The position numbers and the translations under genes were made by a program. The notes under the pieces were generated by a model that was not told the DNA's origin, searched no databases, and saw only the letters and a program-made list of their open reading frames with translations. DNA of 27,105 nucleotides from a virus. How positions within the stretch are numbered: the stretch's first letter is position 1; each line of letters opens with the position of its first letter. The stretch lies in the IMG/VR virus record IMGVR_UViG_3300031857_001121, positions 1 to 27,105 of that record; one strand, 5' to 3'. Positions 15,178 to 17,937 of the stretch are shown here, piece by piece.

Positions 15178-15328
15178 AAACTACAGTACCATTAGGATGT
15201 AATTGACATACAGTCACAGAACCATCTGGTGCTAGTATAGTCGTAGTTTGAGCCAAAGCCTTTTCAGTTCCCCATATAGCTAATGCAGCCATCACTACAA
15301 TAAATATCCAATATATCTTATTCATCAT
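15170..15328 (-). CDS. Small secreted protein with C-terminal Cys pair
   Basis: 52 residues starting at tandem ATGATG inside the end of the DUF3310 gene. The N-terminus is a good signal peptide or anchor (IYWIFIVVMAALAIWG), possibly cut after EKALA. The mature part reads TTTILAPDGSVTVCQ and ends NGTVVCV, with two Cys that could bridge. I recall this TTTI-APDGS-x-x-x-CQ...VVC pattern from small genes of marine and freshwater phages and bacteria, function unknown. It would act in the periplasm. Overlap with both neighbours (11 and 8 bases) supports reality. Confidence 0.65.
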   Translation of the reverse strand: MMNKIYWIFIVVMAALAIWGTEKALAQTTTILAPDGSVTVCQLHPNGTVVCV

Positions 15329-15593: not shown

Positions 15594-15595
15594 AA

Positions 15596-15712
15596 CTATC
15601 CCCTTATAAAAAATAAATCAATCACCTGATACGTACCATAAAAAAAGCCTATTATACTACCAATTACTAAAATCCATATAATATAATCAATTACTTTTTC
15701 CAGAATTTCCAT
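15596..15712 (-). CDS. 38-residue single-pass membrane peptide
   Basis: Starts inside the end of the upstream winged-helix-like gene (22-base overlap) and stops 2 bases before the DUF3310 start. The product has a short charged head (EILEKVIDY) and one strong transmembrane segment IIWILVIGSIIGFFYGTY, with a short tail ending IRG. The Shine-Dalgarno for the next gene (AAGGGG) lies in its own 3' end. No family recognised. Tight packing and the clear membrane helix support it as a real gene. Confidence 0.55.
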   Translation of the reverse strand: MEILEKVIDYIIWILVIGSIIGFFYGTYQVIDLFFIRG

Positions 15713-16298: not shown

Positions 16299-16533
16299 TA
16301 TTGCTTTCAATCAATCGTTGTGTTGCTTCTGAATACTTATTCATTGATTTATATTCTTCTATCTTATCACCTCTAAATAACGGTGTAATCTTAATATGAT
16401 GTGTTGCATTTTTGAGGTCATTAAGATATGACAGTTCTTTAGGATGAAATGACCACAGGTAAGACTTTTTAAGGTCACCAGACTTAACATCAAACTCTTC
16501 ATAAAGCCATGCTACAGGTTCTTTTTTAGCCAT
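16288..16533 (-). CDS. Small phage protein, AKKEPVAWLYEE type
   Basis: Start placed at the ATG in the TAATG overlap with the SleB-like gene, giving 81 residues; a longer in-frame start lies within that gene. It begins MAKKEPVAWLYEEFDVK, an N-terminus I associate with short phage early proteins, and continues with a Trp/Tyr-rich strand (KSYLWSFHPKEL) and a charged C-terminus (RGDKIEEYKSMNKY). No catalytic motif recognised. Role unknown. Confidence 0.5.
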   Translation of the reverse strand: MAKKEPVAWLYEEFDVKSGDLKKSYLWSFHPKELSYLNDLKNATHHIKITPLFRGDKIEEYKSMNKYSEATQRLIESNNGL

Positions 16534-16916
16534 TAGTAAAACACCATCCTTCCTATGTGAGTAATTTTTTGATGACCAAACCACGAATGTTTCGGCATAA
16601 TGGAATCATCATGGAAGTATAAAGCATTTGCAACTGGGTTAGCATATTTATGAAATACAATTGCATCAAGCACCAATAGTTGCGTTTCAAGATACGTCTT
16701 TTTATCAACCTTCTTATGGCTCTCGTCTGTAACGCCAATAAATTGCCCAGAAGCATAAATAACAGAGCATACATCACGACCCCAAAGACCAGATTTGACA
16801 CGATTACGAATAACATTAATGACACCTAGCTTCTCCTCTAATGTTCTATTATTAACTTCGTGATACACAGCAGTAGCATAGCACGAAACTTCTAGTTCTA
16901 AGTTATGTATATCCAT
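16533..16916 (-). CDS. SleB-type cell wall hydrolase
   Basis: 127 residues, preceded by AAAGGTC. It matches the SleB/hydrolase_2 family: AVYHEVNNRTLEEKLGVINVIRNRV (residues 16-40), with Glu20 in the position of the catalytic Glu, then VCSVIYASGQFIG, and a closing IGRMVFY. Family members are lytic transglycosylases acting on peptidoglycan in spores or as phage endolysins. There is no signal peptide, so it would need a holin or another route. It sits in the minus-strand operon, far from the holin cassette, directly left of pqqA. The family call is good; use as the main endolysin is inferred. Confidence 0.78.
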   Translation of the reverse strand: MDIHNLELEVSCYATAVYHEVNNRTLEEKLGVINVIRNRVKSGLWGRDVCSVIYASGQFIGVTDESHKKVDKKTYLETQLLVLDAIVFHKYANPVANALYFHDDSIMPKHSWFGHQKITHIGRMVFY

Positions 16917-16937
16917 TACAGACCTTTCATGGTTTTC

Positions 16938-16969
16938 TTGTGTCTAGTAAACCCATATAAGCGTATAAT
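16938..16969 (+). promoter_or_regulatory. Predicted promoter for pqqA
   Basis: A perfect -10 hexamer TATAAT at 16964-16969, preceded by a weaker -35-like TTGTGT at 16938-16943 (20-base spacing, long) or GTGTCT at 16940-16945 (18-base spacing). Transcription would start near 16976, about 27 bases before the pqqA start, leaving room for AAGGAG at 16990-16995. The orientation is opposite to the surrounding operon, so the peptide appears to have its own start signal. Confidence 0.55.
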
Positions 16970-17002
16970 TCTACTATAAATCTAAAAGAAAGGAGAAACG
17001 CC

Positions 17003-17074
17003 ATGTGGACATCACCATCAGCAACTGAAATGCGCTTTGGATTTGAAGTAACTATGTACGTAATGAACAAGTAA
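17003..17074 (+). CDS. pqqA: PqqA, pyrroloquinoline quinone precursor peptide
   Basis: A 23-residue peptide starting MWTSPSATE and ending MRFGFEVTMYVMNK (residues 10-23). This is the PqqA pattern: MW at the start, Pro5, Arg11, Gly13, then E-V-T-M-Y with Glu15 and Tyr19 separated by three residues, then a short basic end. In known PqqA, PqqD presents the peptide to the radical SAM enzyme PqqE, which links this Glu to this Tyr; PqqF/G proteases, PqqB and PqqC finish PQQ. Length and residue numbers equal those of 23-residue bacterial PqqA. AAGGAG lies 7 bases before the ATG. It lies alone on the plus strand within a minus-strand operon, with a promoter before and a terminator after. No other pqq gene is in the window, so host enzymes would process it. 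Confidence 0.93.
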   Translation: MWTSPSATEMRFGFEVTMYVMNK

Positions 17075-17080
17075 ATAAAT

Positions 17081-17104
17081 AGGGGAGGTCAAACTCCCCT
17101 TTTT
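17081..17104 (+). terminator. Intrinsic terminator of pqqA (perhaps bidirectional)
   Basis: A perfect 6-bp GC stem GGGGAG/CTCCCC (17082-17087 with 17094-17099) plus a flanking A-T pair, six-base loop GTCAAA, and a run of five T. It starts 7 bases after the pqqA stop. Read on the minus strand the stem is followed by ATTTATTTA, moderately U-rich, so it could also reduce transcription of the minus operon toward the SleB gene. Confidence 0.88.
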
Positions 17105-17105
17105 A

Positions 17106-17351
17106 CTAGAAGGGCAAATCTGAATCATCTGCACCTTCAACTGCTGGTTTACTTCTTGTTTCACCCTGAGTTTCTTTCATTTGTACAGAACCGCTAATAA
17201 ATTTGCCGTTCTTACCTTCTCTAATCCAACCACTAATTCTAAATTCAATACCATCTACGTTAGCAGTTCCTGTGTAATCAGGTCGTTTAGGATTGTCACC
17301 CTTATCGTTTTTAAATAACGTAAACGTATTCGTGTTGTCATATTCAGCCAT
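17106..17351 (-). CDS. Short SSB-like single-strand DNA-binding protein
   Basis: 81 residues. A single OB-fold-like core (NTFTLFKNDKGDNPKRPDYT, GTANVDGIEFRISGWIREGK, KFISGSVQMKE) ends in an acidic tail DDSDLPF. That tail matches the SSB C-terminal tip (D-D-x-I/L-P-F), which recruits partner enzymes. It is shorter than E. coli SSB (178 residues), having little linker. Placement beside YqaJ exonuclease and a strand-annealing candidate fits a recombination or replication set. It overlaps the YqaJ gene by 8 bases and ends 1 base beyond the pqqA terminator. Confidence 0.75.
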   Translation of the reverse strand: MAEYDNTNTFTLFKNDKGDNPKRPDYTGTANVDGIEFRISGWIREGKNGKFISGSVQMKETQGETRSKPAVEGADDSDLPF

Positions 17352-17937
17352 CTAATTGCTCCTTTGGAAATAATAATTTATCTTCTTTTAAATCTATGTC
17401 AAATATAGGTTTGCGTTTCCAACGTGTAGGCTCTACATTATCTTCTACAAACTTCATAAATTCTAACGCTAAAGGTTTATACCAGTCAAACCATTCTTTG
17501 CTTCTTTCAATAATTTGTATAGTAATACCTTGTGGTGTCCACACTACAAAATAACATCTTGGCGCACCACATACTTCCATTTGTAACTGTGTTTGGAAAT
17601 AATAACGGTCTGGAATCATACCATAAAACTCTTGACTATATGGACATTTGACTTCTATTGGAAGTCTGTTTAGGAAACCATCTGGACTAGCACCTAGCGG
17701 TAAATCAGGATGTACTATAAGTTTATTACCAGTTTCAGTAATCTCTCCCATAGCCTTTTCAAATTCACATATAGCTAAATGCTCATGTAGATTACCCCAT
17801 TCAGTCATCTCATTACCTTCAAATGGAGCTTCTCTTAAAGTCATTTGACGCCATAATTTTTGTCTCTCATATACAGATGCCCAGCAATTGCTGGCTGTAA
17901 TAATATTATGACGTCTATTATCTGTTAAATGACTCAT
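17344..17937 (-). CDS. YqaJ-type viral recombinase / exonuclease
   Basis: 197 residues. The lambda-exonuclease/YqaJ fold is marked by TASNCWASVYER near the N-terminus, WGNLHEHLAICEFE (Glu52 region), ASPDGFL (Asp86) and LPIEVKCPY (Glu95, Lys97), then RYYFQTQLQMEVCG, the usual Y-x-x-Q-x-Q motif. This is a PD-(D/E)XK nuclease that degrades one strand from a DNA end to leave 3' tails for annealing. It overlaps the annealing candidate by 4 bases and the SSB-like gene by 8, so all three parts of a phage recombination system are adjacent. Family call is firm. Confidence 0.9.
   Translation of the reverse strand: MSHLTDNRRHNIITASNCWASVYERQKLWRQMTLREAPFEGNEMTEWGNLHEHLAICEFEKAMGEITETGNKLIVHPDLPLGASPDGFLNRLPIEVKCPYSQEFYGMIPDRYYFQTQLQMEVCGAPRCYFVVWTPQGITIQIIERSKEWFDWYKPLALEFMKFVEDNVEPTRWKRKPIFDIDLKEDKLLFPKEQLDG

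Follow-up and report, generated by a model that had tools for sequence, protein, structure and literature searches.

Morons of lambdoid phages are added genes with their own promoter and terminator whose presence is variable among close relatives. The cofactor PQQ is made from the peptide PqqA, one peptide being consumed per cofactor while the enzymes are reusable. Methylophilaceae were described to have 3-12 pqqA genes versus one pqqBCDEFG (PMC4109929), and stand-alone pqqA copies can be highly expressed (PMC9851590). Phage PqqA is already known from the one published report that was found, on the Lake Baikal T4-like methylotroph phage population VP_266, which codes for PqqA and a methanol dehydrogenase (PMC7678222). 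PqqA was proposed there to support PQQ and methanol dehydrogenase, a role similar to that considered below. VP_266 represents large T4-like phages with a methanol dehydrogenase of their own, while the DNA described here comes from a lineage of small phages in which pqqA is a core gene. In the papers describing the methylophages Melnitz, MEP301, Venkman and MEP401/402, pqqA is not named among the phage genes.

The window, which is the whole stretch of DNA analysed, is a virus record of 27,105 b. Its minus-strand genes are ordered from a recombination block to a cell-wall hydrolase followed by small genes. The region around pqqA is organized as follows:

16533-16916, minus strand: cell-wall hydrolase (Hydrolase_2/SleB-like, phage endolysin), divergent from pqqA; PF07486 (60.6 bits), PHROG 938
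16964-16969, plus strand: -10-like TATAAT of a putative pqqA promoter, called from sequence and conserved among phage copies
16973-16978, minus strand: mirror -10-like element (ACTATA on the plus strand, TATAGT on the minus strand), TATAAT in many relatives
16990-16995, plus strand: AAGGAG ribosome-binding site, 7 b before the pqqA ATG
17003-17074, plus strand: pqqA, coding the 23-amino-acid PQQ precursor peptide MWTSPSATEMRFGFEVTMYVMNK; PF08042, TIGR02107
17081-17104, plus strand: 7-bp hairpin AGGGGAG-GTCAAA-CTCCCCT with a T-run (T4), terminator-like on both strands
17106-17351, minus strand: SSB-like ssDNA-binding protein, convergent to pqqA; PHROG 18154 (3.3e-16)
17344-17937, minus strand: YqaJ/RecE-like recombination exonuclease, sharing the operon of SSB and preceding it; PF09588, PHROG 434

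A preliminary description of this DNA had placed 189 b between the SSB-like and SleB-like genes and considered such a space exceptional in a tight operon. The size is exact and the gap (16917-17105) is the sole interval without same-strand coding in the minus-strand gene run, in which genes otherwise overlap or have small frames across their joints; the remaining apparent gaps (125, 97 and 140 b) each hold an open frame on the same strand. Uncalled small frames of the minus strand, at 15178-15317 and 15594-15690, have a signal-peptide-like (MAALAIWGTEKALAQ...) and a membrane-like (...IIWILVIGSIIGFFYGTYQVIDLFFI...) product, respectively, and might code for lysis accessories. The label SleB was retained only in part: the protein matches PF07486 but with 34.7 bits comes nowhere near the 236.5 bits required by the SleB equivalog model, and on these scores Hydrolase_2 cell-wall hydrolase or phage endolysin is the better name. 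The identity of the SSB rests on PHROG 18154/7364. The recombination block includes also a 173-amino-acid protein at the position occupied by ERF in relatives. The Rfam and tRNA searches gave no hit in the window, and the absence of a tRNA led to rejection of a tRNA-linked insertion. Host DNA in a misbinned contig was likewise rejected, given the phage genes on both sides and the hundreds of phage kin.

The gene in the gap starts at the ATG at position 17003, ends with the stop codon at 17072-17074 and is the pqqA that had been recognized there. Its product scores above the curated cut-offs of both Pfam PqqA PF08042 (E=8.8e-10; 38.8 bits, cut-off 21.1) and NCBIfam PQQ_syn_pqqA TIGR02107 (34 bits, cut-off 20), the E-value leading to rejection of a chance ORF. 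The peptide features the Glu-x3-Tyr motif (EVTMY), whose Glu15 and Tyr19 are the residues cross-linked in PqqA. Both positions are kept in 205/205 phage peptides of 23 amino acids, a count to be read knowing that the search motif itself demanded E and Y/F. The GC content of the gene is 37.5% (27/72), compared to 31-36% in its surroundings and 33-41% in most of the window, and its base composition matches that of the phage.

The predicted ribosome-binding site was found as described, and kin copies have purine-rich GGAG/AAGGA sites upstream of pqqA. The plus-strand promoter stood in part: the TATAAT at 16964-16969 is present and conserved, but no accompanying -35 passes the consensus scan. A TATAAT lies 20-75 b upstream of pqqA in 89/102 kin phage copies (9.4 expected) and in 33/108 non-kin phage copies (10.4 expected). 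Since kin copies are related, the non-kin copies and the non-homologous upstream types provide the stronger argument, and conservation of the -10 suggests that pqqA has its own promoter. The same element was found in only 1/124 host copies, and a promoter taken over from the host gene is thus unsupported. TATAAT is followed closely by its mirror, forming the dyad TATAAT-N3-A(T/C)TATA. The mirror hexamer matches at 5/6 positions or more, 0-7 b after TATAAT, in 94/129 phage copies versus 33 by shuffling, the copies not being independent. It is possible that it provides the minus-strand -10 of a divergent promoter directed toward the SleB-like gene.

Downstream of pqqA, the GC-rich terminator that had been noticed is indeed a 7-bp hairpin with a T-run and is terminator-like by prediction. 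The hairpin (17081-17100) has this character on both strands, with a better T-tract on the plus strand and a weaker one on the minus strand, and folds with z = -2.5 (plus) and -3.1 (minus). The terminator scan is not significant on its own (3 sites in the 5.5 kb scanned versus 2.4 expected), so the weight rests on position, two-strandedness and the host parallels. The suggestion that it weakens expression of the lysis-type gene might hold, and the mirror dyad just beyond offers a possible new minus-strand -10. The pqqA gap may thus be an operon boundary, with a terminator shared by SSB and pqqA and, on the hydrolase side of pqqA, a promoter firing in both directions.

Relatives of the locus were fetched by their SSB and hydrolase proteins, blind to pqqA. 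Antisense pqqA was found in 143/146 SSB-SleB gaps, a count that takes in some loci from a scan for the pqqA pattern. Of the three gaps without a typical pqqA, two have an unchanged cassette that codes for a divergent PqqA of the GMEITAY type, and the third belongs to a contig broken inside pqqA. When counted by distinct SSB-kin loci, pqqA is present in 146/151. The five exceptions are a truncated contig with a partial pqqA, the broken contig already mentioned, a contig ending in an inserted endonuclease-like stretch, a pqqA whose two substitutions escaped the motif and one unrelated SSB. The SSB of locus L114 (39%) was not accepted as an orthologue. All judgeable SSB-kin loci have antisense pqqA at the same spot, save one broken or chimeric contig, and on this distribution pqqA is a core, fixed gene of the phage lineage of the window. 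A relative without pqqA and with an equal-sized gap, which would speak against an insertion, was looked for among the relatives examined and not found. The nearest outgroup lacking pqqA among the genomes examined, MW202484 (43% SSB identity), has 14 b from SSB to the next gene. This short gap favours an old insertion of pqqA, MW202484 being a single, distant outgroup whose gene downstream of SSB differs from the hydrolase locus.

Diversity in the gene is concentrated in silent positions. The pN/pS ratio is 0.157 when all phage pqqA genes are pooled and 0.087 within the main type (about 0.09-0.16). The first phage set had been chosen by the GFEVTMY codons and was biased for peptide conservation; therefore, loci fetched by their neighbours, blind to pqqA, were used for a second check, which gave diversities of 0.072/0.047/0.272 at the three codon positions. 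By these measures the PqqA peptide is under purifying selection in phages. The flanks of pqqA were exchanged among relatives. More than one type of upstream region occurs, and the 3' end may be the GGGGAG hairpin as in the window, one of the GGGGTGTTAAACCCC types or, in many relatives, a hairpin that includes the SSB stop codon. In L396, L376, L054, L002 and other kin this last structure is a strong hairpin formed by the last SSB codons (EDVPF-stop) and the next bases, which replaces the separate terminator of the window and is possibly a two-way terminator overlapping the stop codon. Five loci (L251, L313, L359, L351 and L268) have guest genes exactly between pqqA and SSB, endonuclease-like or oxygenase-like by eye, and insertions seem to favour this site downstream of pqqA. 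Three phage PqqA peptides, those of L390, L311 and one other copy, have GMEITAY in place of GFEVTMY; the cassette of L390 and L311 is otherwise unchanged, suggesting that the gene was replaced by another paralogue.

The gene extends beyond this lineage. A codon-degenerate DNA pattern searched in IMG/VR matched at least 120 contigs, all PqqA-like, and 87/128 loci among those listed had no marker of the lineage of the window, a rough figure drawn from partial flanks. Isolated Methylophilales phages also have pqqA: P19250A, Venkman, MEP301, MEP401/402 (Zobellviridae) and four Melnitz genomes (Kyanoviridae). Methylophage isolates from four or more lineages have the gene, and in most of them it has no CDS call. 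Public records of Melnitz (L008, 2961-3056) and MW202481 (L002, 2067-2195) miss the true gene and have an antisense "hypothetical protein" called across pqqA. Other methylophages named in the taxonomy, such as MEP431-434, were not among the matches and may be absent from the collection searched; presence in all methylophages is therefore not claimed. One record labelled "Acinetobacter phage" (L009, CAKLQF020000010.1) has ppk and pqqA together with pqqB/C/D; it resembles a piece of host chromosome and was set aside. In the phages of OM43/LD28 listed above the same gene is mostly intergenic and, in Venkman and MEP301, antisense to its neighbours as in the window, while neighbours, promoters and terminators differ. 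The host of the window contig is probably a methanol-eating bacterium, given pqqA and the isolates that share it.

The phage gene is a copy of a host metabolic gene, as are auxiliary metabolic genes. PqqA was found in 100/100 sampled Methylophilaceae genomes, mostly in several copies (1-12), the closest host pqqA DNA is 94% identical, and a Methylotenera MAG contig (L173) codes for a peptide identical to that of the window. Many host copies are solitary, and a terminator-like site lies within 60 b in 108/128 of them, compared to 2/128 in shuffles. Marine Methylophilaceae hosts L146, L149 and L205 have tandem pqqA genes ~200 b apart, the last one with a terminator-like site. Host stand-alone and phage copies share peptide, length, Glu/Tyr motif and the solitary unit with ribosome-binding site and terminator; the phage copy is distinguished by its TATAAT-type upstream element and its antisense position in a recombination/lysis run. 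Linkage to pqqBCDE is usual for pqqA but not required, as the host family has stand-alone copies. None of pqqB/C/D adjoins phage pqqA copies, while the same queries find these genes in 22 host loci.

These data bear on the proposal that pqqA is a self-contained moron. Its own ribosome-binding site, -10 and putative terminator and its opposite orientation, traits that lambdoid morons can share, speak for a classic moron, meaning an optional gene of recent arrival that brings its own promoter and terminator. The mere 14-b gap of MW202484 and the occurrence of the pqqA unit in different phages point in the same direction: Venkman and MW202481 are 90.6% identical over the 85-b unit, beyond which no further flank match was found at the search sensitivity used. 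However, lambdoid morons vary between close relatives and phage pqqA does not: it is fixed in the lineage and its composition is not different from that of the phage. Host copies being mostly solitary with a close terminator, what had been read as moron design is, on sequence comparison, the own stand-alone pqqA format of Methylophilaceae. The stand-alone unit inserted with its own signals stands; its recent and optional character is largely refuted, a foreign one finds no support, and a classic moron is unlikely.

Conservation might also concern the boundary itself, that is a two-way terminator and a divergent promoter separating the recombination and lysis operons, with pqqA as a passenger. 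The two-strand hairpin, the mirror -10 dyad and the hairpins found in most relatives inspected, including the one across the SSB stop codon, agree with this, but selection acts strongly on the peptide, and pqqA persists although promoter and terminator sequences were swapped, which renders such an explanation very unlikely. The identity of up to 94% to host DNA, the exchangeable flanks with guest genes beside pqqA and the adjoining recombination genes could alternatively mean that pqqA is a homology patch, a short DNA common to hosts and phages used by phage recombination for module exchange. Free third codon positions with a conserved peptide are the opposite of what DNA homology would predict, and we consider the patch highly improbable. 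Hardly any credence is given to a decoy role, in which phage PqqA would tie up host PqqE/PqqD and reduce the flux to PQQ or other radical-SAM peptides, the phage peptides being the same as, or very near to, host peptides.

It is probable that the phage took a stand-alone pqqA unit from a Methylophilaceae host and kept it, the phage PqqA feeding host PqqBCDE to supply PQQ to methanol dehydrogenase. The unit would have been acquired as a transcription unit by an ancestor of the lineage and since fixed. During infection pqqA would be transcribed from the conserved TATAAT-type phage promoter, the missing -35 match counting against this step, and the transcript would end at the hairpin that also closes the recombination operon (ERF-position gene, YqaJ and SSB). 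Host PqqE/PqqD would cross-link the 23-amino-acid peptide at Glu15-Tyr19, and PqqB/C and peptidases would complete PQQ. This would keep the PQQ-dependent methanol dehydrogenase (XoxF) supplied, sustaining energy and C1 flux in the infected cell; in an OM43 isolate, no transcript is more abundant than that of xoxF (PMC5120137). As pqqB/C/D are missing near phage copies and found in the host loci, the phage appears to bring the consumable only, and precursor supply to host PqqBCDE is the simplest account. Against it, hosts are already equipped with several pqqA genes, which means that PqqA is not necessarily limiting.

Chances are even that pqqA is, more broadly, a common metabolic gene of methylophages, acquired repeatedly and independently without the enzymes by unrelated lineages (that of the window, Venkman/P19250A-like phages, Zobellviridae and Kyanoviridae), kept by selection and freed from host control by a phage promoter, with peptide supply limiting PQQ. 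If true, PQQ in infected cells is limited by the supply of a consumed peptide and not by enzymes. The gene is below usual gene-calling lengths and is omitted or covered by an antisense call in the public methylophage records examined, yet it belongs to the core of a freshwater phage lineage that comprises hundreds of contigs, and phages of methylotrophs can be recognized by it as a simple sequence marker. Should the mechanism hold, these phages would replenish a consumed precursor peptide and thereby sustain methanol oxidation, which accounts for a sizeable part of carbon cycling in water.
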